DNA of 22,792 bases from a virus. Numbering within the stretch: the first letter of the stretch is position 1; the number at the start of each line of letters is the position of its first letter. The stretch covers positions 1 to 22,792 of the IMG/VR virus record IMGVR_UViG_3300042881_002637; one strand, 5' to 3'. The translations under genes were made by a program, and so were the position numbers. Positions 2,144 to 22,609 of the stretch are shown here, in pieces. The notes beneath the pieces were generated by a model. That model worked only from the letters and a program-made list of their open reading frames with translations. It had not been told where the DNA came from and made no database searches.

Positions 2144-5100
2144 CTAGGTAAGTAAGCGAAGCAACTTAGCCATCTGGCTAGAAATCTCTGATTGGCTGTA
2201 GTAGTCCCCGCCAGACATAAAGGTGTTCAAATCCTTTGTGGCAACAGCGGCGTCTTCCTTACCAATCTTGGCCTCTACCCGTGTAATCATGTCATCCATA
2301 AGTTGTTGTAGCGCAGGAGGGATATCGCTAAAACGAATCTTTTGGGCGTCCTGACCAAAGGCAAAGGGAAGGTTAGCAATAACCTTTCCAAGTTCACCAG
2401 CACTACTTCTGACATTCTCTAAAGATTCAGCATTTAGTGCTCCAGTGTCCAAGCGGTCAATAATGCCTAGAAGGTCACCCGCTGCCTTGGCTGCGCCAGC
2501 GTAATTTCCAGCATTATCTAGATTTTCTGCTTGTTCAATCTTTTTTAGAGCAGCATCTGCGCCAGAATCACCTAAGTCCAGTTTCAACCGGGCAAGAACT
2601 TGTCGAAACTTTCCTTCCGCATCGCGGGGTTGGGTTTTAGGTGTGTATTTGGCACGTTCTGCATCTGCTTGTTTCTTGCCCTTAACTTCTTTTTTTAGTA
2701 AATCAAGTTCCTCGTCAGTCAAACCTTCAAGGTCTTTTTCACTAATTTCAGCAGCAGCCACAACTGTTTTAAGTGCTTCAATTTTGGCTCTCATACTGGC
2801 AATTAAGGTGTCTGAAGTATCAGATGCTTCTTTCCAGTTTTCTGGAATTAAGTCTGTCTTCTCAAGTTGGCGGGCACGCTTTACGATGTGGCGACGAACT
2901 AGTCCACGTTTTCCTGGCTTTGAACGTCCGTATGCCTGAACAGCATTTCTTAAGTCAGAAACATTTCTGATTGGAAATGAGCCATCTGGAAGTGCTTTCT
3001 TTTCGCCAGCAAGTTTTTCACGCATCTTGCGGGAAATCACTGCTAATTCAGTATCAGCATCTTCTAGTGTCTGAAGCATATAAGCGCTGTCAGCATTTTT
3101 TGTTTCTGCAATTCTGCTTGAAAGTTCTGAAGCCTTGATAGCAGCAGTCACTGCTTCAATGCGGGACTTAGCATCTTGTGCAGCAGCAACCATTGGTGCT
3201 TCAAGTTTGTCAATACGCTCATTTAATTCACGTAGTGGGTCATGCTTGAGTTGAGCAAGAACATTTGCACCAGCAGCAACAAGAGCCATAACCTGACCTG
3301 ATGCAACACGAGCACGAGCAATTGGGAAGCCAGGAACGTTTACTTGGCAAACTGCTACAAGTTCAAGTGAACCCTTGATTGGGCGCCAGTCACCAGACGG
3401 TGCTGAAGCACGAAGGGAACGAATCTGTTCTGGAGTTGTTCCAGGGCGAAGTGCTCCTGAGACCCAGATGCCATAAGCATCTTCTCCTGCGTGAACATCT
3501 GCGATAGCAGACGCTGTGTCGTCATAGTGACGAACTGCTTCTGAAGCACTGGCTTCTAGAGAAGCGTGTCCTCCAGCCAATGTTAATTGTCCAACTGGAA
3601 CATCGACACTTTCCTCAGTACGAACTACGCCAGTATGAAAATAGGCATAGTTACTCTTACTGCGTGGTGGTCGTGTTCCAAAAGACATTCCAATATGGTC
3701 AACGTGCCAAGCGGCAATATGACCAAAAACTTTTCCTTCATCAGTTACCGTCAGAGCGGTTGGCTTATTTAAGCCAGGGTTATCAAACCACTCTTTAGGC
3801 GGATGTACTGGAATAGCACCAGCAACAATTCCGCAAGCGACGAGTGCTGATGCGTCTAAAGGATTTACACCCTCGACATACACTCCGTCAGAAATCACTT
3901 CTTCCTCCTGGTCTCTCCCACTTTGTTCAACGAGTTCAATAGTGCACTCTTGATAAGCGGGCTTAGCGACAAGCGTTACAGCCATAACTCTTGCCTTTGT
4001 TATCTTCATTTTACCTGCTCCGACCTTACCGTCGGATTCTTTTTCTGAAGCATTTGTTTCTTCATCTGCTTCAAACATATCTAAGTCAGCAGAAACTCCA
4101 CGGATAAAGCCTCCACGAACAAGTCTTTCCGCTTCTTTTCCGTACTCACCAGTGTCAAAATAGCCATAGGCATTTCCTATGCCATTTTCTACTCTTTCCA
4201 TCTTGGTAATTTTTCCTATAACAACTGATCCGGAATGGCCTTCGCCAGTCTTGATTTGCCATAAGAAAGGTAGTGGTAGTTCTCTCATCAAAATAGCCCC
4301 TGGCACAAACTTACGTCCATCACCAGACTCGATGGCCTCAGGGATAACCAAAGGAATATAGAACTGTGCGCCAACTCCAGGCTCTTCCATAGAAGCACCA
4401 GCAGTCAAAACACGATTCTTAGCGTCAGCGATTCTTGCTTTCATAATTACTGAAGCAAGAACTGCCTCTGATGGAATAACAAAATCATTACTAAAAGTAT
4501 TTTTTGCTTTTCCTTTTTTACCAAACAGTTGACGATGCTCTTTATCGCCTGTCCACATACCTGTGGCTTCTTTATGGCGTAAGGCGCAATAGCCCTTAGA
4601 ACGAGGTCCCATATATTTAGAAAGTTGACGAACACAGCGTGTCCAGTCTCCTGGAGTATTCCAACGAATCTTTGCTGCGCCTTTTCCATATAACCAGTAG
4701 CGACGAAGTTTTTCAGCGTTGCCACGGTTTCTATCAGCACCACCTGCTGCCATCAAAGCAATGATTCTTGAATCAATATTGCTGATAGAGGCAGTTGCTG
4801 GTTTTACAGAATCAATTTGGTCTAATACCAAAGCAAGGTTGTCATCATCTAAAACAATAACTGGTGGGGGAGTAGGACTATTTAGGTCGTTAAGAATTTG
4901 CTCATCTTTTTCCCACTTGCCTGGTTTACGCTTATAAGTCATTGGAGTAGTTGTTTTATTAGTAGCAGGTACTAATGAAACTAATTCCATAACAGCCTGA
5001 GGGTCATCTGGAGAAACAATCGCCATATAAAGAGGAGGAACATCAGATGTTTCTGGGTTTAGTTCTACCTCTTTAGATTCAGCAGCAGAAGTAAAACCTT

Positions 5101-6889
5101 TTGGCGGCTGAGTCAGCCAAGATGCTGGGGTAAGACCTGGAGATGGTTTCAAATCTTTTTTTGGCTTATACGCTTCTACATCAGAAGGTTTTACAGGTGT
5201 TCTAGAAATATCAGGGCGATACCACATCGCGTTTGGATAACTTACAGTTCCATCTTTATTTACAACTTTTTTCTCTAAAAATTCTCGTAAAGATGGGTCG
5301 TTATATGCATTAGGAGTTTTACGTTGCTCTGTTGGTGGAGTCGGTGAGGAAGCAGGAACTTCTGCTGCTTGTTGTCTAAGGTCTACTGCCCAGGGAGAGA
5401 AATCACTAAGAATTGTTTTCACTTGATTTACCTGCAACTGTGGAAGTTTTGCTGTAAGAGTTGCTGCTGGTCTATCAATAGGAGTGCGAGGCTCTCCAAG
5501 AATATTTTTAGTTAACTGCTTAGTTGAAACAGCAGACTGAACCTGAGGCATTGGTTTGAAAGTGTCTACTGACTCTGTTGTATTAGCAGGTACATCTACA
5601 TAACTACCATTTGTAAGTTTTACTTTTACGCTTTGACTTTCTGGATTTATTGACTCGATAGTTCCCGTGTATTCAGGGTTTCCACCAATAACAACTTTTC
5701 CACCAGCCTTAGCAAACTTGCCCATTTTGTCACGAACCTGACCACGAGCCTTTTCTGAGCGCTCTTCTGGGGTGTAGTTTCCATCTTGATTTGTTGGTGC
5801 GCCACTTGATGGTGCTTCACCTGCGGCAGTTAGTGAATCATCTACTTCTGAATATTCTTCATACTCACTATAATCAGTTTCATCGTATTCAACTTCATCT
5901 ACTAAATCCCAATCAACGCCGTCCATTTCATCAACAAATAGTTGAGACTCTTCTGGCTCAATTTGAGAAACATAAACTGCTTTGAAAGGGTCTGCTTCAA
6001 ACAGACCAGAAATAATTACTGCTGTTTTGGAATCTATAGGCAAGTGTAGTTTTGCTACATTGTCGTAAGCATCGTCAAGAGACTTATCGTAAGTTTCAAA
6101 GTCGTGATTTACATTTCCTAAATCTTCCCACATAGCATCGTCCCAAACAAAGACAGAGCCATCTGGATTTACTTTATAGAGACGGTCAATTCCTGAACCA
6201 TCTAAACGAACACGCATATAAAACTGAGGTGCCATTTCTTCTGGCATAACTTCTGCTTCAATAAATGAATTAAGGTCAACTGACTCTGGCTTAGCGTAGT
6301 CAGACATAACGTATTCAAAAGAGGCAGTAATAGAGTTAGACTGGGCTTTTCTATTTTCACGATTTACGATTGCTGTAGCCCAAGACTTGGCAGCATCTCC
6401 GCCCCACAGTGCCCAAGCGATACGTCCGTTGCTTGGATAATTGTCTTGTCCAGGCTTGTAGCCTTTGCCTTTTTTGTCTACTTCATGGCGTGGAAAATAT
6501 TTAGCAATATGACGAATTTTACGAATACCAATTTGTCCACCACGAGCGAGAGTGCGAGCAGTGTTTAGACCGACTGGAGTTCCGCCACGCTTTTCTTCCT
6601 TACGCCATTCCAATGCTCGTTTTGCTTCGGCCTGAACTGATTTAGGAATTGTGTATAAGCGGTCATTGTTAGAGAAAACTTTAATATCAAGGTCTGTCGT
6701 AGCAGCAACAGCAAGTTCAAAAGGAATAGAAGATTCTGGTTTTGTTTGGTCGCCATCAGGCACAAAAGAAGCAACCATAGATTCGGCATCTCCTACCGAA
6801 CATACAAGTTTCTTTTGCTCGTCAATAATAACGGCTTTGTTGTCGGCAACAAATAAAACTTCGTCACCATTGCGACCAATAAACTGCAC
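2144..6889 (-). CDS. Prohead (capsid maturation) protease embedded in a 1581-aa multi-domain protein
   Basis: Serine protease of the HK97 prohead type (U35-like), expected to cleave head proteins during assembly. The protease core is about residues 830-985: His885 in GEGHSGS and Ser933 in RGVSAD are 48 apart, as in the family, followed by a VTLVAKPAYQ strand; the third catalytic residue is not assigned. Flanking modules known from actinophage head proteins are: about 78-175 (RGGTPVGLNTARTLARGG, small helical); 385-438 (RDKMGKFAKAGG beta module); 713-790 (RRYWLYGKGAAKIRW, CVRQLSKY); 1020-1200 (NYAYFHTG, HYDDTASAIADVHAGEDAYG); 1298-1352 (LPDGSFPIRNVSDLRNA); and 1418-1581 (RDAEGKF to YYSQSEISSQMAKLLRLLT). 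TAA-type motifs at 186, 352 and 827 lie between modules and suggest self-processing. The GTG start at 6889 follows GGAG. It is several times longer than a usual protease (about 200-250 aa). Confidence 0.93.
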   Translation of the reverse strand: MQFIGRNGDEVLFVADNKAVIIDEQKKLVCSVGDAESMVASFVPDGDQTKPESSIPFELAVAATTDLDIKVFSNNDRLYTIPKSVQAEAKRALEWRKEEKRGGTPVGLNTARTLARGGQIGIRKIRHIAKYFPRHEVDKKGKGYKPGQDNYPSNGRIAWALWGGDAAKSWATAIVNRENRKAQSNSITASFEYVMSDYAKPESVDLNSFIEAEVMPEEMAPQFYMRVRLDGSGIDRLYKVNPDGSVFVWDDAMWEDLGNVNHDFETYDKSLDDAYDNVAKLHLPIDSKTAVIISGLFEADPFKAVYVSQIEPEESQLFVDEMDGVDWDLVDEVEYDETDYSEYEEYSEVDDSLTAAGEAPSSGAPTNQDGNYTPEERSEKARGQVRDKMGKFAKAGGKVVIGGNPEYTGTIESINPESQSVKVKLTNGSYVDVPANTTESVDTFKPMPQVQSAVSTKQLTKNILGEPRTPIDRPAATLTAKLPQLQVNQVKTILSDFSPWAVDLRQQAAEVPASSPTPPTEQRKTPNAYNDPSLREFLEKKVVNKDGTVSYPNAMWYRPDISRTPVKPSDVEAYKPKKDLKPSPGLTPASWLTQPPKGFTSAAESKEVELNPETSDVPPLYMAIVSPDDPQAVMELVSLVPATNKTTTPMTYKRKPGKWEKDEQILNDLNSPTPPPVIVLDDDNLALVLDQIDSVKPATASISNIDSRIIALMAAGGADRNRGNAEKLRRYWLYGKGAAKIRWNTPGDWTRCVRQLSKYMGPRSKGYCALRHKEATGMWTGDKEHRQLFGKKGKAKNTFSNDFVIPSEAVLASVIMKARIADAKNRVLTAGASMEEPGVGAQFYIPLVIPEAIESGDGRKFVPGAILMRELPLPFLWQIKTGEGHSGSVVIGKITKMERVENGIGNAYGYFDTGEYGKEAERLVRGGFIRGVSADLDMFEADEETNASEKESDGKVGAGKMKITKARVMAVTLVAKPAYQECTIELVEQSGRDQEEEVISDGVYVEGVNPLDASALVACGIVAGAIPVHPPKEWFDNPGLNKPTALTVTDEGKVFGHIAAWHVDHIGMSFGTRPPRSKSNYAYFHTGVVRTEESVDVPVGQLTLAGGHASLEASASEAVRHYDDTASAIADVHAGEDAYGIWVSGALRPGTTPEQIRSLRASAPSGDWRPIKGSLELVAVCQVNVPGFPIARARVASGQVMALVAAGANVLAQLKHDPLRELNERIDKLEAPMVAAAQDAKSRIEAVTAAIKASELSSRIAETKNADSAYMLQTLEDADTELAVISRKMREKLAGEKKALPDGSFPIRNVSDLRNAVQAYGRSKPGKRGLVRRHIVKRARQLEKTDLIPENWKEASDTSDTLIASMRAKIEALKTVVAAAEISEKDLEGLTDEELDLLKKEVKGKKQADAERAKYTPKTQPRDAEGKFRQVLARLKLDLGDSGADAALKKIEQAENLDNAGNYAGAAKAAGDLLGIIDRLDTGALNAESLENVRSSAGELGKVIANLPFAFGQDAQKIRFSDIPPALQQLMDDMITRVEAKIGKEDAAVATKDLNTFMSGGDYYSQSEISSQMAKLLRLLT

Positions 6890-7197: not shown

Positions 7198-7983
7198 TTA
7201 TTGCTCCTTTGCTTTACTATCATCAATAGGTCCACCTGCCACCCAAGCGCGACAAGTTCTAGCAGACGCACATTTGAAATCGAACGCTTCGCAGTATCCA
7301 AGTTCTCCAGCCTCGTCTATTGCATCAAACTCATCGGACTGATTTTCTCCAGTCAATCCTTGAGAGATGCAATCCTTCATTGATGATGTGACTACGAAAA
7401 CAGCGCAATTACCACAGCGCTGTTGCTTTGCAGTTTGCACATCTACGCCCCACTCAGATCCCAGTGCTTGCCAATACTCGTCGTTTGGCTCGTCTGGATT
7501 TAGTGGACCATACATAGCAGTGTCAATAGCGTTTTTACGGTTTTTTAGATTAAGAGCAATGTCTTGGGTTGCTGGAGGACATTCAGACACGGCGGCAGTT
7601 ATTGGTTTTAGTTCTTTTGCTGGATCATAAAATTTTGCTTCTTCTTCGTCAGAATAATCATCTCGAAGGTCTTGTTTTGCTAGTTCTAAAGCATCATCAA
7701 AACTATCGTATGGCTCATCTTCTTCTTCATAATAATTAATCATCATATTATACGAAACAATGTCTAAAATTTCTATAGCAATAGGTTTTTCTAACTCTTC
7801 TGTTTGCTTAATAGCATTAATTCTTGCTGATATTGCTCCTAAGAAATTTTCTATAACAATTTCTCTAGTTCCCACAGGGAAGCCAACACTGGTCTTTTTA
7901 CCATCCGTGACAACAACAAATGCAATAGGCTCTTTAGAATCGTCCATCTGAGCAGAGTAATAAACTCTATAATAAGACTTCAT
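7198..7983 (-). CDS. CGNC cysteine-cluster head-region protein (261 aa)
   Basis: N-terminal part about 1-110 is an alpha/beta domain (KSYYRVYYSAQMDDSK start, then acidic helices). PITAA at 127-131 (7591-7605) separates it from a C-terminal region with at least six cysteines: RCGNC (Cys190, Cys193), a Cys in MKDCISQG, GYCEAFDFKC and ARTCRAW. This CGNC cluster is also found in the protein downstream of the portal. It resembles metal- or iron-sulfur-binding (HiPIP-like or zinc ribbon) clusters seen in actinophage head-region proteins; no ligand can be assigned. The ATG at 7983 follows AAGGGG and starts 2 nt after the stop of the giant gene. A structural or assembly role is inferred from position. 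Confidence 0.87.
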   Translation of the reverse strand: MKSYYRVYYSAQMDDSKEPIAFVVVTDGKKTSVGFPVGTREIVIENFLGAISARINAIKQTEELEKPIAIEILDIVSYNMMINYYEEEDEPYDSFDDALELAKQDLRDDYSDEEEAKFYDPAKELKPITAAVSECPPATQDIALNLKNRKNAIDTAMYGPLNPDEPNDEYWQALGSEWGVDVQTAKQQRCGNCAVFVVTSSMKDCISQGLTGENQSDEFDAIDEAGELGYCEAFDFKCASARTCRAWVAGGPIDDSKAKEQ

Positions 7984-7985: not shown

Positions 7986-10900
7986 TTAGTATCCCCTTCT
8001 AATTTTTTCAGCAAGTTTTCTAGCATTTTTAATTACATATTCTGCTCTAGCATCTATATAACCAGCGGCTCTATCGTCAATAAGGGCTAAAGCAGCAGCA
8101 CGCTCACGCATACGGTTTGCAAATTCTACTATCTCTGACTCTGCTTGGTCTATACCAACATTGTCAACGTATCCAGCGCCGTATTGAAGTGCAGCGTTTC
8201 TATTTCCATAATCACGACTAGTTAATATTCTTATAGGGTCTAAGAAAAGAGGATTGCTGTTGTTTTTTTCTGCATTACCAAACATCCCATTGAACAAAGC
8301 AAGTCCATTATCAATAGGAATAATTCTTGCCTTACCTGTGTCGGGGTCTATTCCCCACATAAAATTTCCGCCGTGCCTGTCGGAGTTTCCAATAATTGCA
8401 TTGCCAACAAGAAAACGTAAAATTTCTGCTCTATGCTCTGGCATTACATCTTCAATACCTCTAACACGAGCATCCGAGTCCTTTTTAATGTTTTGAAGCC
8501 CGAAAAATCCAGTGTCAGCAAACTCCATAACAGCAACTCCCCCCACTGCGGGGTCATTAGATTCTGGGTTTATTATCTTTACTGCTGGCTGAGCAAATCC
8601 TAGGTCTTTGTAAAGCATGGCTACCATTTCTTCGGCTCTAATTCCATTGCCTAAAAATTTTCCAACCATGTTTCCTTTGTCTATGTCAACTTTTATAAGT
8701 ACATACTCTCCGTTGATTTTATTTTGTAGTAGGAAAAGACCATTTATGCCAGCAGTCATATTTCTTACATATTTCCAGTCACCAATTCCGTTTTTTATTT
8801 CATCGGCAGTAAAACCACTAAACTCTCTAGCAATCTTTGCTACACGCTGATTTGCTTCATCAGAACCAACTTCTCTAACTGGTAGTTTGGGGAGGTCTCC
8901 AAAATCAATAAATCCATTCTTAATTTTTTCTAATTTTTCAACTAAATCGTCTAGTCCTTTTTGTTCATCCTCTGCTGCAACTATATTTTTTATTTGACCA
9001 ATCATGGCGTCTATGTTTCTTGGACCAGCAAGAACAGCATTTCTAAAATTAGGATTGAATGGATCTGGATACATTAGGGCATCATCAAAATTATTTCTTA
9101 TTGCTCTTCTGTTGTCACCAACTCTGAACCCTAAACGTTGCTTGGCATCGTTATAGACTTGGAACATATCAGGAAATAGTGCCTCTAAATTTTCAACTTT
9201 TTGCTTAAAATCGTCATCCATAGGTCTTAGGGGGATTTCTTCTTGTAAGCCAGCAAGGGCCTCCATTTTGCGTGCTTCTTCAAACCAACCTAAACCTCTT
9301 GCATAGGTAGCAGCATTTCTCATATCTTTTGCAAAACGGTCGCCTCTTCGTCGGTCAATTTCATTAGCATTAGCAGCAAGAAGTCTTAAAATGTAATTCT
9401 TTTTTGATTCTCTATCTCTATCAATTGCTGCTTGGTCTGCTTTTCCAAATGGCTCAATTTGGACAAATTCTTTATCAGCAATAGCAGCCTTCAAATCTTT
9501 AGCACGAACCTTAGCGGTTCTTAAATCTAAAGATTTCCTGGCTGGAAGGTCTGGAACTTGAGCAGTTTCTCTGGTAAGAACAGGCTGAGGTTCTGGCTCT
9601 TCAACTCCAGCATAAGAGCGAACAACTTTATTTCCATCGTCAGCATTTACTACATCATCAACAAATCTATTAATTACTGCTTGAACATCTGCAAGGTTTT
9701 CTGCTTTAGCAATAATTTCTCCTCTTCCCCTTTCTTCTCCTTCAGGGAAAACAGCAGCCTCGTAGTTATTGTTTATTTTTACAACGCTTATGTTAAAACC
9801 TTTTCCACCTCTGTCAGCAACATTGCCATTAAAAATTTTCTGAGGTGCATTTTCTTGCTCTTTATTTTCAGGCTTTTCAACTTCCATAAGTCTTTGCTGC
9901 TCTGGCACCGCTTCACGACGCTCTATTGCAGCACCTTCAGGGTCTGCTATATATTCCATTTTGCTAATGGTAAAGTTTTTTATTTCTCCATTTTCAATAG
10001 CAGCAATGTTTATGTTTCCGTTTTGAAGGTTTTCCCAAACCTTAATTGGCTTTACGTATCTAGTTTTTCCGTTGTAGTTGAAAGAGATATCATCTCCATT
10101 TTCAATAGCACGTCGTATTTGCTCTTCTAAATCTTTGTTCTTATCTTTTCTTACGACAGGCTCGATTAGAGGAACAGCGAACTTATCATCTGGAGCAGCA
10201 TCTGGTGCTTCTGCTTTTGGTTCAGGAGCGGGGGAAGGAGAAGGTGCTGCTTCAGCCTTTCTTCCTGGAACAATGTTTGGAGTTGCTTTTCCACCTTGGA
10301 AGAAATTTGGAAGATTAATTGGTTCTTCAATTTCATTTAGTATGACAAGGTTTCCAGCCATGCGCTTTACACCAGGGAACTTATACTTTCTTTCTATTTC
10401 ATTTTCCCATTGGACTACTACGTAGTCTCCGTACATTACTCCTTTTCTACCAAGACCACCGACAGGGCCGACTCCCTTAACCTGTGCACCCTCTCTTCTT
10501 AGTACAACGCCTCTTCCCAACTGAGGTTTTTTAGGATCAACGACGACATCACCTGGTTTTACAGGTACGCCATTTGCATCTCTATAAAAACCTTTTTTCT
10601 TTTCTTCAAATTTTCCGCCTACTTTTCGACCTTCTCTAGGAATAATTCTTTCTTCAAGAGGTAGACGAGGCTGTTGTCCACGTATTCCTCCTCTATTGGT
10701 TCCATCTTTGTTGTCAACAATTTCAAATTCTTCGTCTTGAACTCCTAGGCGACGGACATTACGAATAGGTGTACCTGCTTCGTAAAATCTACTTTCAGTT
10801 TCGCCGTTCACTCTATTTTTAACAGTTATTTTATAGCGATTTAGAGGGCCACCAACATATACTATTTCTAGAATTTCTTCATAGTTATTAAAAAATGCAC

Positions 10901-13900
10901 TCCACAAAAAGTCTTCGCCAACTTTTAGATTTCCTGGCTCTATAGGAGCAAGAAGTCCAGCATTTGCCTCAACCCAAGCGTTATCCTTAATTTTATCTTC
11001 GTCTTCTTTAATTTTTGCTTTTGCTTCTTCAGATAGAGGCTTTGGCTCTCTCTTTTTCTTTGGCTTGTCTTCTTCTGCTGGTTGTTCTGGATTTAGAAGA
11101 GCATCAACAACACGATTGACAAAATCTCTTCCTTCTTTTTCAGCCTCTGGCTCGTTTGTGTGAGAAGATGACTGGTTAGCAATAACATCTCCATCAACGT
11201 CTTTTACAACGGCATCAGCATTAAATTCTGGTTTTTCAGGATTATCTCCTGATTGAATTTTTATATTGCCAACTATTCCATCTGGAAGATTTTCAACTTC
11301 AACATATTTAGGAGCATTTACTGCGTCTCCTGGTATATCTCCACGAGAAACGGGAACGTCTTTTGCTCGTGCCTCTTCTGGTTCTTGCTGTTCTTGACGT
11401 CTTTGAGCAACTAAATCTTTCTTTTGTTCATCAAGTATCGCTCTTGCTTCGGCGTCAGCGGCAGCATATGTTCTAAATCTTTCTTCTGCTGCATAAATTT
11501 GATTTCCTTTTTCATCATAAAGTCTTACTTGATAGACAAACTTTTGGTCATCTTTTGACCTGTATATGCCAATAAATTCGCTACCAATCCCTGGAACGTT
11601 GTTGTATTCAGCAAGAAGGGCTTTGTCTTCTGCTGGTTCTGCTTCAAGTTTTTCTACGTCAATAGGATTATTAGCAATTATTTCAATAATTTCTGGCTCA
11701 GGTGACTCTGCAACTGGCTTAATCTTATCTGGCAAGTCTTCAAATGTTTTAGAATTAGATATAGCATCTAAATCACGAGGATTAATTGGTCGACGAACTC
11801 CATCAAGTCTTGTTCCGTGCCAATGCTCATAAGTAGATAACTCTCCACTGTCAACATCTTTTCTATAGACTTTTATTCGTCCTGCATCAAGACCAAAATC
11901 TTCACCACCACGAACAGCGACTACTTGATAAACTTGTCTTCCATCTTTAGATTGCATAAAATCACCAGGAAGCAAATCACGCATACGAATATTGTCACGA
12001 GGTAGGAGCACAGTGTTTTTATCATCAAGTGCCCACTCGCGGTCCTTGAGAACCATTCTTCCACGAGGAAAATCTACATTTGGTGTGAAATCAAGAACTA
12101 CAACTTCACCACGAGCACGAACTGGTTCTGGCTCAAGGCCAATAGGACCAGCGTCAATATTTTCTCCAGGGTTTGGAATACCAGTAGCGTCTTTTATAAC
12201 GTTATCAAGATTTGCAACATATCCATCTACATATGCTCGCAGTCCTTCTGCCAATGCTTTAGCGGCGGCAAACTCAGCAAGGTTTCCGTCATATAACTCT
12301 TTTGCTGCAATATATCCATCCATCTTTGCTACATACTCATCATTGCGAGCATCAACATCGAACAAATCTTTTCCAGCATCAAGTTCAATTCCCTTATCAA
12401 TAAGAGCATTGAAAATCTTTGCTGCTGCTTCTGCATCAGCATCTGCTGCGTGCCAATTTTCTAAATCAACGCCAAGATGTTTAGCAAGGTTTCCTAGAGC
12501 GTAACTTTCACGGCCCTTAGGAGTCTTAGGACGGTTTTCCTTAGGTTGGTCTTTGTAGATGTCTCGTGCCATTGGCAAAACGTCTAGTAAACCTCCTGGA
12601 GCCCAATCAAGACCATGACGGTCAGCAAGACGACGAGCAACTTCCTCATCAAAGACCATGTTTTGTGCGCCAAAGATTGCGTTTGGTCCTGCCCACTCCA
12701 AGAACTGACGCATTGCATCTTCTTGATTTGGTTGTTGTGCTAAAAATTCATCGTTAAGTTTGTTGCCCTTGTCATCTACAGCATTAGGGATTCCATCTGT
12801 ATCACGACCAGCATATGTATCAGCAATAGAGCGACCTGGGTTCATAAAGATATTTACACGGTCAATAACTTCACCATTGCGGACACGAACACCAGCAACT
12901 TGCCATGGCTCATTGCCATCTTCTGGATTTACTCCAGTTGTTTCAAAATCAAAGAAGACTAAATCTTTATCCTTAAGAAGTTCACGGAACTTAGCCCAAT
13001 CGCCACCTGCTTCACGAGCAATTGCAGCCATATCACCTTGGAAGGCTGGCATCTCAATTTGGCGTGGAGGTGTAGGACGTCGTACAGCAACAGCGTTAGG
13101 AATATCCTTATCCTGCTCTGCAACGTTTTCTTTATTATCTACAACAGGAAGGTTTTCTGGAGCAGTCCAGCGGGCTGCTGCTTCGTCTAATTTCTTTTGA
13201 TGCTCTTGAATTCCTTTTTCATCTTTTTTATCAGGAACCCACTTTTCATTAATAATTTTGTAAGGCTGATGTAGTTCTTCTAAATCACCCTTTGCAGGTG
13301 GTTCAACATTACGAATAACATCAATAGGACCATCTGCTTTCCACTCTTTTCTTTGAGTGACGTGCCCTGGGTAGTATCCCTCGACGCTAACAAAATTTGG
13401 CTTAGTTTTTTCATCAACAAAAATTCTTTCAATTACAAAGTGACCCTTCTTAGGGTCTGTAGTTACATCTCCAGGTTTTAGATCAGCAGCACGAGAAATA
13501 ACTCTATGAGGATTATTAGAAGGCTCTGTTGGGTCTACAAAAAGTTTTTTAGCCTTATCTAACTCTACTCTGTACTCTGCCATAGCGGCGTCAAAGGCTG
13601 CTTGGTCTTCTGGTTTAGCAAATCCCCATTTATTATTTTCTTTGTTTAGTTTACGACGACCAAAATCTTGCTCCTTTGGCTTAGAAAGAACTGGTAGGTC
13701 TCCCTTTTCTGGAAGCGGATTTACGTTACGAATTACACTAATCTCTGTATCTTCATTCCATTGCTTAGTGTCTTGCTCAACGTGGCCAGGATAGTAACCC
13801 TTAATTTTAATGCGATTTGTTCCAGGAACTTTTTCACCAAGTTCAGTAATAACAAAATGGTCATCAACAGTTATATCTCCAGGAATAATGTCTTTTACTT

Positions 13901-16895
13901 TTACAGTAATTCTGTATGGTGGTTTTCCTATATCTCCTCCCCCAGGAGGTGTAGAACTTCCCCCACCTGCTGCTGGAGCAACGTTTGCTGGTTTTGGATA
14001 TTCTTCTAGACCATCTGGAATCTCCTGTAGCCCATCAACTTGAAAATCATCTGGCATAGCAGGGCGAATGTTTTTATTTTCTGGAAGAGAAACAATGTCT
14101 AAACCTTTTTCACCTTCTGTAGCAGTGCCTGGCTTGCGCTCTGCTGCAACTGGAAGTTCTGCAACTGGTGCATTTACGTCTGGGAAATCTCCAGCCTGTT
14201 CTGCAATACGCTTTTCTCTTCCAAAGGCTGCCCAGGCTTCTTTCTGAGCAGGGCGAGGCATATCAACTGCCCATGATGTTTCAAAATCATCTAAAGCCCT
14301 CTTGTAGGCTTCTGTATGGTTATCTGGATTAGCAAAGAAATCTGCAATCTCCGCTTGAGTCATTGAATCAAAAGCGGCAATTTGCTCATCTGAAAAACCG
14401 TAGCCTTTAGCAAACTCTTTAATCTTTTCACGAGATGCTTTTGCATATTCTGCCTTGCGAGCATCTAGGTCTGCCTGTACTTCATCCCAATTTTCATAAG
14501 TCTTTGGTTCAACAAGTTTGTTTCGGTCCTTGACAGTAATTTTTCCATCTTTATCGGTAGATGCTTCAAAGTTATTCAAACCATAAACGTTGTTATAGTT
14601 TTCTGGAAGAGCGCGGCCAAACATTCTTCCTACTGTTTGTGAGATTCCCCAACCTTCGGGAACAGAACGTCCTTGGTCATCAACACGGGCCTCAGCGTTG
14701 GCTTTTAGTTCTGCTATGCGGTCTTCAATAGCCTTTTTCTCTGCTGCTTGCTCTGCCATCAAACGCTCGTAAGCATTCATTGGCTTATCCTCAACTGGGA
14801 GGTCTAGAGGAAGTTCTGCTTGCTGTTCTTCTTGTCCAACAAATCCTTCATCAGCAATTGACTTAACAAGTGTGTCTGTATCTTCTCCAAGAAGTTGTAG
14901 AGCATCACGCACTGCTTCTACAGGAACGTTTGCTACAAAGTCTTCGCCATCATCATCTTTCATAGACACATTTGCGTGTCCTGGAATTGGATTACCTGGC
15001 TCAATGCCACGCTTTAGTTCTTCAACAAGTTTTTCTTTTTCAATAGACTGCGCTAAGAAGACAGGGTTGTCACTAAATCCAACTGGAAGATTTTCATTTT
15101 GGTCTTCTTCAGTAACTTCTTTCCAGTTTTGGTATGGCTCAGGATTGATTTTGTGATATCCCGCTGGCATATCAACATCTTCATTTTTTGGAAGGTAAGG
15201 AGTGTGGTCCTTAGTTTTCATAAACTCTTCCATCTCGGCTTCGCCAAGACCATCTAATACAACTGGAAGTGGAACTAGGTCCATCTCCTCTTTATTGAAA
15301 TCTGGAATCTCTGCTGCTGGTGCCTCATCTGCGTCGCGCTCAATAGTTCTTTCAAATGCTTCAGCAATATCTGGATTAGGTCCAGTAACATTTTCTGAGC
15401 CCTTACGGAAGTCAGCAAGTGCTTCTTCGTTTTGTTTAGTTCCAAGTTTTTTGTCGTAGATTCTTGCAAGTTCTAGTGGAGCATCTTCACCAGCCTCTTG
15501 AAGAGCAAAAAACAATGCTTCTGCTGGAACAAACTCGTCTCCGTTATTGAAACCAAGTGCTCCATAGCCAGTTGCGTTTTCGCCATCTTCTTTTGGAATA
15601 ACTGCTTCTTCTAAAGCAGCAACTAAATCACGAGGGTCATATTTTTGTGCAAGTTCTACAGGGTCATCAGTAAAATCTGTTGACTCTTCATCAATACGAC
15701 CTTCAGGGTCATATGATAAATCTGGGTTAATTATTTTTGCGCCTTCAGGAATAGCAAAAGCAAAAGCCGCTGCTTTTTCTTTAGGTTTTACAATTTCTTG
15801 TTTTTGTTTTTGTTGTTCTTTTGCTTCTGGAAATTCTGTTTCCTGAGAAGGCTTATCAATTTCATCAATCTTGTCTAGAATCTCTGACCAAGACTTGGCA
15901 TCAATGATTGGACCTTTGCCATTGCTTCCAGTTAAGTTTCCAAAAGTATCTTTTGTAACTGTCCACTCTTCGTTTTTCCAAGTATACTCACCAAATTTTG
16001 TCCATCCATCTGGTGCTTCAACAAATTCAATATCTTCTTCGTTGATTACATCATCACTTGCTGAATAACGAACTGGTGCTTTACTAAATCCATCAGCGGT
16101 CGGGTTAAGGATTGCTTTTACGAACTCGCCTTTAACAGGTGGAAGTTTTGCGATACGGCCATCTGGAAGTTCTACAAGAACATTTTGTCCATCATTGGAG
16201 TCCATAAGAGTTTTACCAACAACGCTAAATACTTTTCCAGCACGACGGACTAAAGCACGAATACCTCCGCCCATGTAAGCAAATCGACCTTTGCGGTCAC
16301 GACGTTGTAGTTTTGCACGAAGAGAACGAGCAATTGGAGAGTTTCCATCGCCCATAGCAGCAAGTAAAGTTTCTGCTGGAAGAGTCCCCTGAGGTAGACC
16401 AGCAAGGATTGAGTTGTAATAAGTATGTTCTACAGAGCCAAACTCTGAAGTAAGTGCTGAAGCAAGAATTACTCGTGCACGTTCATCTGTAATTCGTGCG
16501 TCATCAACAAACCAACGAGCACGAGAAGATTCTAAAGCAGATGCTGTAAGAGAGTGGTCACGAGTTGAGCGTGGGTGTGAGATTGGAAGTAAATCTGTGT
16601 GTGAAAGAGTTAAAGAGTTGTTCTTATTGTTTTGAGCAAGGTTGATGTATTGAGTAAGTTCTTTCAAAGCCATATGCTCACGTAGTGAGAATGGAAGATT
16701 ACGTGTTGCTTGAAGTGAGCGAAGAACTACAGTAAATGCTGCCTTCTTTGTAATACGGCGAGATGTATTGGCATTTGTATTTGCTTGTTCAATTACAGAA
16801 AGTGCTGACTCACGGATACGAAGAGCCTGGCTCATCGACTGAGCGCGACGTCCCTCTTCTGAGATTGCGTGACTTAGTCTGCGAATTCTGCTCAC
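7986..16895 (-). CDS. Giant 2969-aa putative minor head/ejected protein with DEDDh exonuclease and HipA/PI4K-like kinase domains
   Basis: One unbroken frame, starting at GTG 16895 (GAGGAAGG upstream; overlaps the previous stop as GTGA). Residues 1-130 form a helical head ending in DLLPISHPRS and SLTAS (115-119). RDRKGRF (199-205) opens a small beta module. Two related segments (about 376-492 and 576-686) share INP, FLAQ-like, DGE-FV and GED motifs. Two GYYPGHV repeats lie at about 995-1075 and 1130-1212. The DEDDh exonuclease is about 1305-1505, with Asp1316/Glu1318 in DFETTG, Asp1416 in NMVFDEE, and His1482/Asp1487 in HAADAD. More PGD-type beta modules follow (about 1635-1700, 1980-2050, 2108-2188), then a possibly WYL-like stretch (2267-2313). 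The C-terminal kinase-like domain (about 2700-2969) has Lys2735, Asp2839 in GNSDRHGGN and Asp2862 in PIDNG. The linkers are rich in Glu, Pro and Lys. It takes the place of a MuF-like minor head protein; ejection with DNA is inference. Confidence 0.95.
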   Translation of the reverse strand: MSRIRRLSHAISEEGRRAQSMSQALRIRESALSVIEQANTNANTSRRITKKAAFTVVLRSLQATRNLPFSLREHMALKELTQYINLAQNNKNNSLTLSHTDLLPISHPRSTRDHSLTASALESSRARWFVDDARITDERARVILASALTSEFGSVEHTYYNSILAGLPQGTLPAETLLAAMGDGNSPIARSLRAKLQRRDRKGRFAYMGGGIRALVRRAGKVFSVVGKTLMDSNDGQNVLVELPDGRIAKLPPVKGEFVKAILNPTADGFSKAPVRYSASDDVINEEDIEFVEAPDGWTKFGEYTWKNEEWTVTKDTFGNLTGSNGKGPIIDAKSWSEILDKIDEIDKPSQETEFPEAKEQQKQKQEIVKPKEKAAAFAFAIPEGAKIINPDLSYDPEGRIDEESTDFTDDPVELAQKYDPRDLVAALEEAVIPKEDGENATGYGALGFNNGDEFVPAEALFFALQEAGEDAPLELARIYDKKLGTKQNEEALADFRKGSENVTGPNPDIAEAFERTIERDADEAPAAEIPDFNKEEMDLVPLPVVLDGLGEAEMEEFMKTKDHTPYLPKNEDVDMPAGYHKINPEPYQNWKEVTEEDQNENLPVGFSDNPVFLAQSIEKEKLVEELKRGIEPGNPIPGHANVSMKDDDGEDFVANVPVEAVRDALQLLGEDTDTLVKSIADEGFVGQEEQQAELPLDLPVEDKPMNAYERLMAEQAAEKKAIEDRIAELKANAEARVDDQGRSVPEGWGISQTVGRMFGRALPENYNNVYGLNNFEASTDKDGKITVKDRNKLVEPKTYENWDEVQADLDARKAEYAKASREKIKEFAKGYGFSDEQIAAFDSMTQAEIADFFANPDNHTEAYKRALDDFETSWAVDMPRPAQKEAWAAFGREKRIAEQAGDFPDVNAPVAELPVAAERKPGTATEGEKGLDIVSLPENKNIRPAMPDDFQVDGLQEIPDGLEEYPKPANVAPAAGGGSSTPPGGGDIGKPPYRITVKVKDIIPGDITVDDHFVITELGEKVPGTNRIKIKGYYPGHVEQDTKQWNEDTEISVIRNVNPLPEKGDLPVLSKPKEQDFGRRKLNKENNKWGFAKPEDQAAFDAAMAEYRVELDKAKKLFVDPTEPSNNPHRVISRAADLKPGDVTTDPKKGHFVIERIFVDEKTKPNFVSVEGYYPGHVTQRKEWKADGPIDVIRNVEPPAKGDLEELHQPYKIINEKWVPDKKDEKGIQEHQKKLDEAAARWTAPENLPVVDNKENVAEQDKDIPNAVAVRRPTPPRQIEMPAFQGDMAAIAREAGGDWAKFRELLKDKDLVFFDFETTGVNPEDGNEPWQVAGVRVRNGEVIDRVNIFMNPGRSIADTYAGRDTDGIPNAVDDKGNKLNDEFLAQQPNQEDAMRQFLEWAGPNAIFGAQNMVFDEEVARRLADRHGLDWAPGGLLDVLPMARDIYKDQPKENRPKTPKGRESYALGNLAKHLGVDLENWHAADADAEAAAKIFNALIDKGIELDAGKDLFDVDARNDEYVAKMDGYIAAKELYDGNLAEFAAAKALAEGLRAYVDGYVANLDNVIKDATGIPNPGENIDAGPIGLEPEPVRARGEVVVLDFTPNVDFPRGRMVLKDREWALDDKNTVLLPRDNIRMRDLLPGDFMQSKDGRQVYQVVAVRGGEDFGLDAGRIKVYRKDVDSGELSTYEHWHGTRLDGVRRPINPRDLDAISNSKTFEDLPDKIKPVAESPEPEIIEIIANNPIDVEKLEAEPAEDKALLAEYNNVPGIGSEFIGIYRSKDDQKFVYQVRLYDEKGNQIYAAEERFRTYAAADAEARAILDEQKKDLVAQRRQEQQEPEEARAKDVPVSRGDIPGDAVNAPKYVEVENLPDGIVGNIKIQSGDNPEKPEFNADAVVKDVDGDVIANQSSSHTNEPEAEKEGRDFVNRVVDALLNPEQPAEEDKPKKKREPKPLSEEAKAKIKEDEDKIKDNAWVEANAGLLAPIEPGNLKVGEDFLWSAFFNNYEEILEIVYVGGPLNRYKITVKNRVNGETESRFYEAGTPIRNVRRLGVQDEEFEIVDNKDGTNRGGIRGQQPRLPLEERIIPREGRKVGGKFEEKKKGFYRDANGVPVKPGDVVVDPKKPQLGRGVVLRREGAQVKGVGPVGGLGRKGVMYGDYVVVQWENEIERKYKFPGVKRMAGNLVILNEIEEPINLPNFFQGGKATPNIVPGRKAEAAPSPSPAPEPKAEAPDAAPDDKFAVPLIEPVVRKDKNKDLEEQIRRAIENGDDISFNYNGKTRYVKPIKVWENLQNGNINIAAIENGEIKNFTISKMEYIADPEGAAIERREAVPEQQRLMEVEKPENKEQENAPQKIFNGNVADRGGKGFNISVVKINNNYEAAVFPEGEERGRGEIIAKAENLADVQAVINRFVDDVVNADDGNKVVRSYAGVEEPEPQPVLTRETAQVPDLPARKSLDLRTAKVRAKDLKAAIADKEFVQIEPFGKADQAAIDRDRESKKNYILRLLAANANEIDRRRGDRFAKDMRNAATYARGLGWFEEARKMEALAGLQEEIPLRPMDDDFKQKVENLEALFPDMFQVYNDAKQRLGFRVGDNRRAIRNNFDDALMYPDPFNPNFRNAVLAGPRNIDAMIGQIKNIVAAEDEQKGLDDLVEKLEKIKNGFIDFGDLPKLPVREVGSDEANQRVAKIAREFSGFTADEIKNGIGDWKYVRNMTAGINGLFLLQNKINGEYVLIKVDIDKGNMVGKFLGNGIRAEEMVAMLYKDLGFAQPAVKIINPESNDPAVGGVAVMEFADTGFFGLQNIKKDSDARVRGIEDVMPEHRAEILRFLVGNAIIGNSDRHGGNFMWGIDPDTGKARIIPIDNGLALFNGMFGNAEKNNSNPLFLDPIRILTSRDYGNRNAALQYGAGYVDNVGIDQAESEIVEFANRMRERAAALALIDDRAAGYIDARAEYVIKNARKLAEKIRRGY

Positions 16896-17851
16896 TCTTG
16901 TGTACCTTCCTCAAACTCTGGTAACAAATCTCCATCAAGACTTCCATGACCTAAAGATGCTAGAAGTGATGCACGAACAAAAGGATCGTCGCCATTTCTT
17001 ACACCACGAAGCCAACTTGCTCTAATTGCTTCCTCCGCTTCATATCCATAACCTGAATACTCTGCCATAGCAAGGATAGCGTCTTCTGGGTATAGGTAAT
17101 CTTCTTTATCTTTTAGTTCAATATTAAGTTCTTGCTCGTATGCAAACTCTTCAACATCTTTCATAGATGTTTTTCCTTCTTTTTTGATTACGCCATCTGG
17201 AAGAACAGCAAAACGACACACTCCTAGTGGTTCTACAGGTAAAGAAATGATTTGACATTGATTTCCACCAGCATAAAGAACACAGTTGCCACAATGGACG
17301 CCAATTTCTTGGTCTTTGTTCTCTGCGGCAGGTGTATAGCCAGCCCAAATGCCAGTTTCGTCTTCATTAAACTTTCCATACTTGTTAGCAATCTCAATAA
17401 GTGCTGCTGCTAACTCTTGTTCTTCTGGAACAAGTCCTGCGGCAGTGATTGAATTAGATTTTTTACTAGAGCGAGGGTGTGCAGCAGGTAAAAGGTCATT
17501 ATCTGTTGTGTAAGCAGAGTTAGAAGGCTTTCCAGACTTGAGTAAACGCAAGAAAGCATTGACACGGCCCATTGCCCATTGGTTGCGATTCATTCCAGGA
17601 CGATGCGAGACACTAAATGCTCCTGCGCCACGGCGATAGACCGCCTTGAGCATTCCTAGAGATGCTTTACGTCCAGAAGGTGCTTTTTCATTGTGCTTAG
17701 AAACTTTTTCTTTCAAAGATGCTTCAACTGCTGCTGAAAATTTTACTTTGCGTGCTGCTTTGGTTCCTTTAGCGGAATCTTTTTTGTTTTTTGATGAACC
17801 TTTGATTCGATCAGACTTCGGTGCTGGTGTCTGGCTGATTGTCCTCGACAT
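16892..17851 (-). CDS. CGNC cysteine-cluster protein downstream of portal (about 319 aa)
   Basis: The preferred start is ATG 17851, with GGAAGGCGGTG just upstream; a longer frame begins at TTG 17929 but would overlap the portal by 118 nt. With ATG 17851 the overlap with the portal end is 41 nt. The N-terminus (MSRTISQTPAPKSD, then Lys-rich) is basic. A helical part with GMNRNQWAMGRVNAFLRLL follows, then DLLPAAHPRSS and SITAA (134-138; 17438-17452), the same pair of motifs as at the start of the giant. The C-terminal half carries HCGNC (Cys187, Cys190), Cys199 and Cys212 (PLGVCRF), a four-cysteine metal or Fe-S type cluster. The stop overlaps the giant's GTG by 3 nt, so they are probably translationally coupled. 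Function is unknown; actinophages commonly carry a similar gene next to the portal. Confidence 0.88.
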   Translation of the reverse strand: MSRTISQTPAPKSDRIKGSSKNKKDSAKGTKAARKVKFSAAVEASLKEKVSKHNEKAPSGRKASLGMLKAVYRRGAGAFSVSHRPGMNRNQWAMGRVNAFLRLLKSGKPSNSAYTTDNDLLPAAHPRSSKKSNSITAAGLVPEEQELAAALIEIANKYGKFNEDETGIWAGYTPAAENKDQEIGVHCGNCVLYAGGNQCQIISLPVEPLGVCRFAVLPDGVIKKEGKTSMKDVEEFAYEQELNIELKDKEDYLYPEDAILAMAEYSGYGYEAEEAIRASWLRGVRNGDDPFVRASLLASLGHGSLDGDLLPEFEEGTQE

Positions 17852-19580
17852 TTGATTCACCGCCTTCCGCAGGTGCTCCAGAAGTTGCTTGTTGTAGAAG
17901 TTGTTCAACACTTTCAGGTAGCGGAGCAACAGATGCGCCCTGCTGAGCCTCTCTTACCTTCATCATAAGTTCAGGACTTAGCGCACCAAGCATTGCTTCA
18001 GTAAGTTCAGGAGTAATTGCTCCCTTCTCAAAGAGCATTCTGATTCCAACTTCTTCTGCTGTAGGTGTATCGGATGCAGAGAAGCCATGAGCACGACGCC
18101 ATGTCTCTCCAGAGATAATTCCTCTATCAAATCCAGAGTCAGCATCCATCGCTCTGTCATTGCGGGTTGAAACTGCGCTTGGGTCATACCAAACAACAAT
18201 TCTGTCAACCTCTGTTGGATTGAATCCTTGCGCCTCTAGATAAGGACGTAGGTAAACAATTGTTAAAGCATCAGCAATAAGCAACATCAATGGTTCGATG
18301 TGTGCTTTGTACAGTGCTTCATCAATTTGTAGAGCGTTCGAGTATTTCACATTAGCAAGACCTGTTACTACATCCTTTGGAACATCTAGACCCTGAAGGA
18401 TACGTTCTAGTACTCGGTCTGCACGTTGAGCCAATGCAGGGTCGAACGAACGCTCAAACTTAAATTGCTTAATCGCATCGCCAAGTTCAGCAGGGCCACG
18501 GATGATAAGCGGAACGACAGCGGAAGCAGACTCTTCATCACGAATCGGAGTTGTCATTGCATCAATGAGTTGTTCTTCAAACTCATCTTCTGCTTCTTCA
18601 GCAGTAAAGCCAGGATTTAACTCGCTATCTGCCTCGTCATATGGATAATCAGGGTCTCCTTGAGCAGCAACTGATAAACCATCTGGTAAATAAAGTGCGC
18701 CAGCATTGAGGCGAGAACGTGCTGTTGCACGGAATGTTCTATTGAGCAAAAGTAATTCAGCACAAAGGTCTAACAAACCACGAAGTGATGAATCTGCTTC
18801 ATCTGAATAACGTGGGTGCGAACGCCAAATGCGTCCTACGAATGCGCCATTAGCAAGACGATTGACTCCTAGTGCACCGCCAGTGCTTTGTTCACGGCGA
18901 CCAATAACGTTGTATCCACCACGAGCATCTGCCATAATTTCATCAACGGAACGAATGTCCCAAGACTCAGGGATTCCAGAGCCTTTCTTTTCTGGCATTT
19001 GAACTAAATAACATTCTCCAGCAACTGAAAGATTGAGTGCTGCATCTTTGAGAAGACCTGCTTGTCCGCCATATGCAGAGTCAAGCCGTGCAAGTGCTCG
19101 CTCTGCGGCAGCAGCAAGACGTGGGTCAATAATTTTTGCGTTGCGTACAGATGTTGGAGACTCTGATGCGTTCTCTACAACGGCTGCGTAAATTCTAATT
19201 CGTGAAACAACAGATGCAACTAAATTGAAAGCATACTTAACTTCACCAATAGCATCGTAGTATTCCCATGCTTCGGCTTGCCATGCTGATGAGCCAGCAG
19301 CACGACGTTGTCTAAATTGTTCAAACTCACCTTTGTCATTAATTTTAATTTGTACTGCCGCAGCAGTTAAAGAACGTGGAGTTGAATAAGCAACAGGAGA
19401 TGCAGGTGATGATAAAAATACTGAGGCAGGTCCAGAAACTTTAGAAGAACTACGACGAGCAACTATTTGTGTGGAACGAGTAGTAGATTTTGACTTACCT
19501 TTTTTAGGTGAAGATGCTTTCTTAGGGACAGCAGGGCGAACAGGTTCATTAGACGGTTCTTCGCGTTTGAATACGCCCAC
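17811..19580 (-). CDS. Portal protein (589 aa)
   Basis: Dodecameric DNA-entry ring of the capsid vertex, recognised by similarity to actinophage portals. Characteristic stretches are WEYYDAIGEVKYAFNLVAS near 105-123, the LLLLNRTFRATARSRLNAG helix region, a FERSFDPALAQRADRVLERI stretch, LDVPKDVVTGLANVKYSN and IVVWYDPSAVSTRNDRAMDA. Residues 1-69 are a basic, Ser/Lys-rich leader ending in RSLTAAA (70-75; 19356-19373), a motif shared with other head proteins and possibly a maturation site. The C-terminus (from about 545) is a Glu/Gln-rich tail. The start is GTG 19580, 8 nt after GAGGAG; no better ATG exists at the N-terminus. Length is normal for this group. It lies 36 nt after the DUF1360-like gene and overlaps the next gene. 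Confidence 0.95.
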   Translation of the reverse strand: MGVFKREEPSNEPVRPAVPKKASSPKKGKSKSTTRSTQIVARRSSSKVSGPASVFLSSPASPVAYSTPRSLTAAAVQIKINDKGEFEQFRQRRAAGSSAWQAEAWEYYDAIGEVKYAFNLVASVVSRIRIYAAVVENASESPTSVRNAKIIDPRLAAAAERALARLDSAYGGQAGLLKDAALNLSVAGECYLVQMPEKKGSGIPESWDIRSVDEIMADARGGYNVIGRREQSTGGALGVNRLANGAFVGRIWRSHPRYSDEADSSLRGLLDLCAELLLLNRTFRATARSRLNAGALYLPDGLSVAAQGDPDYPYDEADSELNPGFTAEEAEDEFEEQLIDAMTTPIRDEESASAVVPLIIRGPAELGDAIKQFKFERSFDPALAQRADRVLERILQGLDVPKDVVTGLANVKYSNALQIDEALYKAHIEPLMLLIADALTIVYLRPYLEAQGFNPTEVDRIVVWYDPSAVSTRNDRAMDADSGFDRGIISGETWRRAHGFSASDTPTAEEVGIRMLFEKGAITPELTEAMLGALSPELMMKVREAQQGASVAPLPESVEQLLQQATSGAPAEGGESNVEDNQPDTSTEV

Positions 19581-21484: not shown

Positions 21485-21635
21485 GGCTAGTGTCTTAGAC
21501 ATAAGGGGGCTAAGTGTCAAGGCTTTTGATAACGATTAGATAACAAGGGGGCTAGGCTCTTGTCTAAAGGTGTGATACAAAACACTAACAAAGACTAGGA
21601 CAATACTTGACAATAGTCTAGGCGTGTTCTAGTGT
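21427..21635 (+). repeat. Four CTAGTGT repeats, the last overlapping a promoter -10
   Basis: Copies are at 21427-21433, 21434-21440 (direct tandem), 21487-21493 and 21629-21635. Two of them extend to TCTAGTGTTA (21433-21442 and 21628-21637). The last contains the TAGTGT -10 of the promoter for the 73-aa gene, so the others may be repressor sites or decayed promoters. Confidence 0.45.
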
Positions 21636-21658
21636 TAGGTATGTAGTCAAAGGGGCTA
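21503..21658 (+). repeat. AAGGGGGCTA repeats
   Basis: Two perfect copies lie at 21503-21512 and 21545-21554, and one with a single change at 21649-21658. The G-rich part looks like a ribosome binding site. The first copy precedes a GTG (21514) opening a 9-codon frame (MSRLLITIR), so leader peptides are possible but unproven. Confidence 0.4.
21607..21635 (+). promoter_or_regulatory. Promoter of the 73-aa gene
   Basis: TTGACA (21607-21612), 17 nt, TAGTGT (21630-21635), about 44 nt before the start codon. It belongs to the same family as the three promoters further right (shared ACTTGACAA). Confidence 0.72.
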
Positions 21659-21679
21659 CACGAAAAGACAGGAAAAGAA

Positions 21680-21901
21680 ATGACACAACACGGGGTAAGC
21701 ATTACAACTGAAGGACATAACTACAACTTCGTAGTAGATACCACCGCACAGGTTAGAGACTTGCTACTGAACACCACCGCACCAATTACTGAGGTTATTG
21801 TTATGGAAGAAGGCTACGGCAAAGAAGCCCGTATGCTAAACGCTGAGGAAATCTTGGCTATTGTCCTCAACCACCCAAAGCCAGCCCTATCTCTAGTCTA
21901 A
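21680..21901 (+). CDS. Small early protein of unknown function (73 aa)
   Basis: Not recognised. MTQHGVSITTEGHNYNFVVD and a following strand-helix pattern (TEVIVMEEGYGKEARMLNAEEILAIVL) suggest a compact alpha/beta fold. There are no cysteines and no membrane helix. The ATG at 21680 follows AGGAAAAG. It has its own promoter upstream and a strong terminator 14 nt after its stop, so it is a monocistronic early unit. Early single-gene units in phages are often host-takeover genes, but nothing in this sequence shows that. Confidence 0.82.
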   Translation: MTQHGVSITTEGHNYNFVVDTTAQVRDLLLNTTAPITEVIVMEEGYGKEARMLNAEEILAIVLNHPKPALSLV

Positions 21902-21915
21902 TAAACTAGGCAAGG

Positions 21916-21939
21916 AAGCCCCCGCAAGGGGGCTTTTTT
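21916..21939 (+). terminator. Intrinsic terminator after the 73-aa gene
   Basis: Perfect 8-bp stem AAGCCCCC/GGGGGCTT with a GCAA tetraloop, followed by a T run (21934-21939). Confidence 0.92.
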
Positions 21940-21975
21940 GTTGCCTAAATCACAGACACGCCGTATAGTAAATAC

Positions 21976-22004
21976 TTGACAAGCGTAAGTTAGTAGTCTA
22001 GTAT
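21976..22004 (+). promoter_or_regulatory. Promoter of the 63-aa gene
   Basis: TTGACA (21976-21981), 17 nt, TAGTAT (21999-22004), about 30 nt before the start codon. This is a near-consensus sigma70-type promoter. Confidence 0.8.
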
Positions 22005-22034
22005 TCAGACATAACCTAAACAAAGGGGGAAAAA

Positions 22035-22226
22035 ATGGAACACAGACTTACAGTAAAGAGAGAGTTTGCTGGTAGTTATGTCTCTTGTTGCGGTATCCAA
22101 ATACAGCGTAGTGCGTTAGGTGGTTGGGTTATCACTTGGCCGGGAATGTCCTCTCCAGACGAGTGGACTAAAACCCTAGAAGATGCTAAGTGGGTTGCCG
22201 AACAACACCACACAGCGAAAAAATAA
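22035..22226 (+). CDS. Small early protein of unknown function (63 aa)
   Basis: Not recognised. It starts MEHRLTVKREFAGSYVSCCG and contains GGWVITWPG, which suggests a small beta-sheet with a C-terminal helix (EDAKWVAEQHHTA). A CC pair is present at about 18-19. The ATG at 22035 follows AAAGGGGG. It is flanked by its own promoter and its own terminator, which supports a real gene despite its length. Confidence 0.8.
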   Translation: MEHRLTVKREFAGSYVSCCGIQIQRSALGGWVITWPGMSSPDEWTKTLEDAKWVAEQHHTAKK

Positions 22227-22234
22227 AATTAGAG

Positions 22235-22257
22235 AAAGACCCCTTAGGGGGTTTTTC
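22235..22257 (+). terminator. Intrinsic terminator after the 63-aa gene
   Basis: GACCCC and GGGGGT form a stem around a short TTAG loop, extended by A/T pairs (A 22235-22237 with T 22254-22256), followed by a pyrimidine-rich TTTTTCTTTT tail. Confidence 0.85.
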
Positions 22258-22606: not shown

Positions 22607-22609
22607 TAC

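Follow-up and report, generated by a model that had tools for sequence, protein, structure and literature searches.

Phage polyvalent proteins are very long, multidomain products of late virion genes in which unrelated enzymes share one chain, and the proteins of the published set do not follow a polymorphic-toxin-type layout (Iyer et al. 2017, PMC5512222). In phage T4, the prohead protease removes a propeptide from Alt, which modifies the host RNA polymerase after ejection, and both Alt and the IP internal proteins are head-internal with N-terminal propeptides of 7-19 residues (PMC9026906). The Dar proteins of P1 line the inner head, and among them DarA/Hdf are carried within the capsid in bound form and counteract restriction (PMC12810830); the MuF polymorphic toxins are packaging-module proteins with variable C-terminal effectors (PMC5576092).

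The DNA analysed here is a 22.8 kb virus fragment taken from IMG/VR (the window, meaning the whole stretch), from a phage of actinobacteria, probably freshwater ones. Its head genes follow the order portal, DUF5824 protein, giant protein, protease and capsid, as they do in the relatives (Table 1). The initial annotation had described the giant as one unbroken frame of 2969 residues, and this holds on the minus strand, where 2969 codons run uninterrupted from 16895 to 7986 (residue r lies at 16895-3(r-1), running downward), the plus strand across 7986-16895 being full of stops. Translation starts at a GTG codon, with a 4-base GTGA overlap with the stop of the preceding DUF5824 gene. The giant works like, and by its testable features belongs with, the polyvalent proteins of phages (PMC5512222), among which its architecture is new: at least two disparate biochemical activities, an exonuclease and a kinase, are found in one chain, and its portal, protease and capsid neighbours are late or virion genes, as for the phage-type members. 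It differs from the described proteins in pairing a DEDDh exonuclease with a PI4K/CtkA-like kinase, and in its order of predicted N-terminal loading region, middle repeats and swapped C-terminus, which is that of polymorphic toxins. The text of PMC5512222 does not mention HipA, DnaQ, PI3K or phosphatidylinositol, and the Pfam polyvalent-kinase models gave no match to the giant. The typical polyvalent domains (such as ArdC-N, MPTase-PolyVal and ART) were also not found by Pfam in the window giant, and occur instead in the giant of the related contig L027 or in the corresponding slot of phage Sixama. A head protein of this size with two enzyme domains had been called unusual; the kind has precedents in the polyvalent proteins, T4 Alt and the P1 Dar proteins.

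Table 1. Features of the window; a slash within a motif marks the predicted cut.
Feature	Coordinates	Strand	Evidence or remark
Portal	17811..19580	minus	phrog_776, 1e-109; candidate site PRSLTA/AA at 19359-19370
DUF5824 protein	16892..17929	minus	candidate site NSITA/AG at 17438-17449
Giant protein (P0001), 2969 aa	7986..16895	minus	ORF; relatives L081-L090
Predicted pro-region, residues 1-118, pI 11.6	16542..16895	minus	DLLPxxHPRST element common with DUF5824 protein
Candidate maturation-protease site SLTA/SA, residues 116-119	16539..16550	minus	
RDxxGRF domain, residues ~190-262	16110..16328	minus	
Repeat A copy 1, residues 380-500	15396..15758	minus	
Repeat A copy 2, residues 575-693	14817..15173	minus	
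Repeat B copy 1, residues 995-1075	13671..13913	minus	beta-rich
Repeat B copy 2, residues 1131-1211	13263..13505	minus	
DEDDh 3'-5' exonuclease domain, residues 1308-1500	12396..12974	minus	family, fold, catalytic residues
Two beta4-alpha units after the exonuclease, residues 1756-1936	11088..11630	minus	weak PUR-repeat-like fold match
Swapped C-terminal module, from about residue 2330	7989..9908	minus	
PI4K/HipA/CtkA-like kinase domain, residues 2699-2969	7989..8801	minus	profile, invariant residues
Kinase catalytic residues 2837-2864	8304-8387	minus	
261-aa Cys-rich protein	7198..7983	minus	candidate site KPITA/AV at 7591-7602
1581-aa polyprotein with S78-like prohead protease	2144..6889	minus	phrog_859, 3e-91
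Candidate sites in protease polyprotein	6320-6331, 5822-5833, 4397-4408, 3140-3151	minus	
Major capsid protein, cut by window edge	3..1970	minus	phrog_777, 2e-61
Candidate site VAITA/GAD in capsid protein	1038-1049	minus	at pro-domain boundary

Family matches, a predicted fold and five catalytic residues that do not vary all confirm the complete DEDDh motif set noticed in the initial annotation. The exonuclease region matched Pfam RNase_T (E=4e-14), the PHROG DNA polymerase exonuclease subunit (E=9e-29), the NCBIfam DEDD exonuclease (E=3.5e-18) and a CRISPR-associated DEDDh profile (3e-19). In an alignment of 16 sequences, with relatives down to 33% identity, D1316, E1318, D1416, H1482 and D1487 are invariant. 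The fold search that had been proposed as a check matched the predicted model to PolC, DinG and DnaQ structures (E=3e-9 to 2e-6), with a TM score of 0.78 normalised to a DnaQ domain, and the alignment and model together contain the features of the class, namely the D-x-E, D and H-x4-D set in an RNase-H-like fold.

At the C-terminus, residues 2699-2969 are well supported by profile and invariant residues as a PI4K/HipA/CtkA-like kinase, which bears out the kinase motif set of the initial annotation. The Pfam PI3_PI4_kinase match (E=8e-4) lies below the Pfam cut-off and recurs, weakly, at this position in numerous relatives, and a profile of 19 sequences compared with PDB sequences found CtkA (E=1e-4), the best solved relative by this profile, and PI4K-II-beta (E=3e-4). 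In an alignment of 18 sequences, some of them from a separate phage lineage (L105, L106), K2735, N2837, D2839, R2840, H2841, N2844, D2862 and G2864 are invariant; these residues contain the hallmarks of the PI4K/HipA kinases (the ATP lysine, the DRHxxN loop and the DxG metal site), and the catalytic loop N-x-DRH-xx-N and the D-x-G are common to the giant and to the CtkA, HipA and PI4K-II kinases. In contrast to those kinases, the domain of the giant is fused to a huge phage protein and the relationship is reached solely through a many-sequence profile: a single-sequence search of the PDB gave no kinase, and with the kinase module as a single-sequence query there was no match in viral contigs or phages, whereas an alignment query found relatives that the single-sequence searches had missed. 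The module exists as form I (window, L087, L098, L101, L037) and form II (L081, L083, L085 and others), whose profiles align over the active site with 97.7% probability. The fold match is only suggestive, since the top matches of the fold search are kinases but none falls below E=0.02.

Between the two ends lie the repeat families that the initial annotation had reported, of which A and B are real, with two copies each (iE 6e-9 and 3e-19, respectively), while the sequence likeness within the third (1756-1840 and 1864-1936) is weak (iE 6e-3). Both copies of the latter are predicted as four strands and a helix, and the fold search related them to PUR repeats at E=3e-3. The RDxxGRF domain also opens the giants of the phages Pumpernickel and Zooman, and a similar RDxxGKF stretch is present in the protease polyprotein. 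A WYL domain, suspected by eye at residues 2240-2320, was unsupported against solved structures (E>0.8).

Searches with the portal and the giant brought up relatives in many contigs. At least 33 relatives have the conserved N-terminus, 33 distinct N-termini bearing DLLPxxHPxST, and the remainder of the protein varies; no relative of the N-terminus was found in bacterial genomes. The kinase forms the C-terminal end of most complete giants, and the other C-termini are ArdC with MPTase-PolyVal, UvrD helicase and unassigned ends. The giant of L027 (4300-12204; residues 2315-2599) ends in ArdC-N and MPTase-PolyVal (E 1e-19 and 2e-27) and that of L066 has a UvrD helicase (9e-12), whereas in the corresponding slot of cultured phages we found UvrD in Mimi gp77 (Arthrobacter), an ADP-ribosyltransferase in Sixama gp75 (Gordonia; 2e-16) and a kinase-like end in Pumpernickel gp82 (7e-5). 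ArdC-N, seen in this ending of L027, is described as rare among polyvalent proteins of the phage type (PMC5512222). The exonuclease is missing from the giants of L031, L036, L037, L061, L074, L075, L079, L101, L111, L113 and the cultured phage DSL-LC01, and in the last of these (3289 aa, L093:29000-30136) neither exonuclease nor kinase was detected and the C-terminus is unmatched. In Sixama gp73 (L096:15710-18034), a T-A site at the start precedes an RGADGRF stretch, after which a HipA-like kinase stretch and a ParB-like end can be seen by eye.

The window giant is 75-98% identical to that of L083 across most of residues 1-2300, with lower values at 901-1000, 1601-2000 and 2001-2200, and beyond about residue 2330 the identity falls sharply to 23-40%. 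With L087 it is mostly 40-85% upstream and 50-64% beyond this point, and the drop in one comparison and retention in the other show that the tail module has been exchanged. These data bear on an alternative in which the giant serves the assembly or structure of the head and nothing is ejected. Both enzymes would then be active in the cell that makes the virions, where the exonuclease would trim DNA ends or debris at packaging and the kinase would tune head assembly. The position among head genes, the beta-rich repeats and the N-terminal element common to the giant and the DUF5824 protein all agree with such a role, but a core assembly step suits less well the loss of the exonuclease in many relatives and the swapping of the C-terminus for ArdC, helicase and others than host-facing effectors do, and we consider this alternative unlikely. 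Exchange with an anti-restriction module speaks for a function directed at the host or its defences, and the presence of ArdC/MPTase-PolyVal, UvrD and ADP-ribosyltransferase at the same slot agrees with a multi-effector or anti-defence role for a protein carried in the virion.

The N-terminus of the giant may be a counterpart of the T4 propeptides. Residues 30-122 match the DUF5824 protein (E=3e-4), and removal of residues 1-118 would leave an acidic chain of 2851 residues and ~317 kDa. The predicted pro-region differs from the T4 propeptides in its length, ~118 residues, and in ending at T-A rather than at the T4 site; the enzyme of Alt also differs from those of the giant, and our searches found no domain in common with P1 DarA/Hdf. 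The hydrophobic-T-A-[ASG] motif recurs across the portal, giant, protease and capsid proteins, and its pattern, [ILMV]TA[ASG], was chosen by visual inspection of SLTAS- or SITAA-like strings in the window. The window head proteins contain 11 copies where shuffling gives 1.8, and none of 2000 shuffles had as many as 11; for DSL-LC01 the corresponding figures are 12 and 2.5. Since the motif was chosen after being seen, each of the 400 possible residue pairs at the two central positions was ranked, and T-A came first in the window and in DSL-LC01 and second of 400, behind V-A, in the four phages held out of the motif choice (Pumpernickel, Zooman, Mimi and Sixama). The over-representation of [ILMV]VA[ASG] in the head proteins of these held-out phages (L094-L097) is as strong as that of [ILMV]TA[ASG], and the cutting rule may be [TV]-A rather than T-A alone.

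The T-A motif lies at the portal N-terminus in every isolate examined, at or near the boundary between the capsid pro-domain and the mature capsid domain, and, as [LM][TS]A[SA], directly after DLLPxxHPxST in nearly all of the 33 giants. From this sharing of the motif among head proteins, the pro-region is probably cleaved off. It is not universal, given that the giants of Pumpernickel, Zooman and Mimi are without it. In the other lineage (L105:7679-9214 and L106:7803-9356), the gene after the kinase-tailed giant and before the capsid gene encodes a protein that has a DUF5824-type stretch and itself terminates exactly at DLLPKGHPRSTRK, as if it were a free-standing pro-region.

The window has a single 1581-aa protease polyprotein where DSL-LC01 has three genes; these gene splits (at about residues 636 and 1400 of the window protein) were considered as support for cleavage, but they miss the predicted sites and lend none. 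The conserved protease core (842-1263) has both its ends near the last two candidate sites of the polyprotein. The two neighbours of the giant have a CGNC cysteine pattern in common (CGNCAVF in the downstream protein, CGNCVLY in the DUF5824 protein), and the DSL-LC01 counterpart is annotated as an iron-sulfur protein; a 100-aa protein is also encoded downstream of the giant on the same strand. Our literature search found no mention of DUF5824 or of phage DSL-LC01. On the plus strand, short early-type ORFs lie behind TTGACA boxes at 21590-22640, two of which (21976 and 22387) have the spacing TTGACA-17-TAGTAT, and promoter-like sites in the window scan overall showed no excess over chance.

The giant could itself be a polyprotein, cut into separate enzymes before or after delivery and never acting as one chain. 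Processing of polyvalent proteins by built-in metallopeptidases has been proposed (PMC5512222), L027 bears such a domain, and the adjoining protease polyprotein has four candidate sites. However, the sole other T-A site of the window giant, at 2713, falls within the kinase domain and the domain search found no built-in peptidase in it, which makes this account improbable. It is very unlikely that the phage is temperate and the giant a polymorphic toxin of the MuF type, paired with an immunity gene: the packaging-module location and variable C-terminus of the giant resemble those of the MuF toxins (PMC5576092), but these are described from Firmicutes temperate phages, no integrase was found in the window, itself a fragment, and the Pfam search gave no MuF match to the giant at E≤1, so that the "MuF-like" slot of the initial annotation is positional alone and membership is rejected.

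Our data are best explained by a packaged, pro-region-loaded and ejected polyvalent cargo protein acting on host proteins and nucleic acid, to which we assign a probability of about 0.68. The basic, DUF5824-related N-terminal ~118 residues would dock the giant in the assembling prohead, and the S78-like protease would then cut after hydrophobic-T-A. The acidic internal protein could stay with the DNA and enter the cell alongside it; size alone is no bar to ejection, for which phage N4, with a virion RNA polymerase of some 3500 residues, offers a precedent. Once inside, the DEDDh domain could trim or degrade 3′ nucleic-acid ends and the kinase phosphorylate host proteins, as their families suggest, with the beta-rich repeats possibly binding nucleic acid or host factors, and these activities would favour host takeover or survival against defence. 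In this reading, recombination passes the C-terminal effector from phage to phage. By likeness to T4 Alt and the P1 Dar proteins, the giant is probably packaged and delivered; its presence in the virion is highly likely and its ejection into the host likely, and the kinase seems more apt than not to act on protein. For the exonuclease, the choice of target between phage DNA and the nucleic acid of the host or of its defences is close to even, leaning slightly towards phage DNA. For the multi-effector or anti-defence role that had been suggested, the two enzymes, the head-gene position and the domains of the relatives all fit, while packaging and ejection are still steps that we infer.

More tentatively, this actinophage lineage may have a general head-loading system. 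Giant effectors that replace one another (exonuclease and kinase, ArdC, helicase) would be brought into the head by a basic pro-region related to DUF5824, which the phage's own protease would cut at hydrophobic-T-A/[ASG]; the system would resemble that of polymorphic toxins, with the infected host as its target. Our findings suggest that many freshwater and soil actinobacteria phages bring a large enzyme set in with their DNA, and the T-A motif provides a testable cutting rule for the poorly studied head proteases of actinobacteria phages. If the proposed reading is true, the swapped C-termini would amount to an inventory of the enzymes that serve takeover and counter host defence in the first minute of infection, and the pro-region might be usable as a loading tag.
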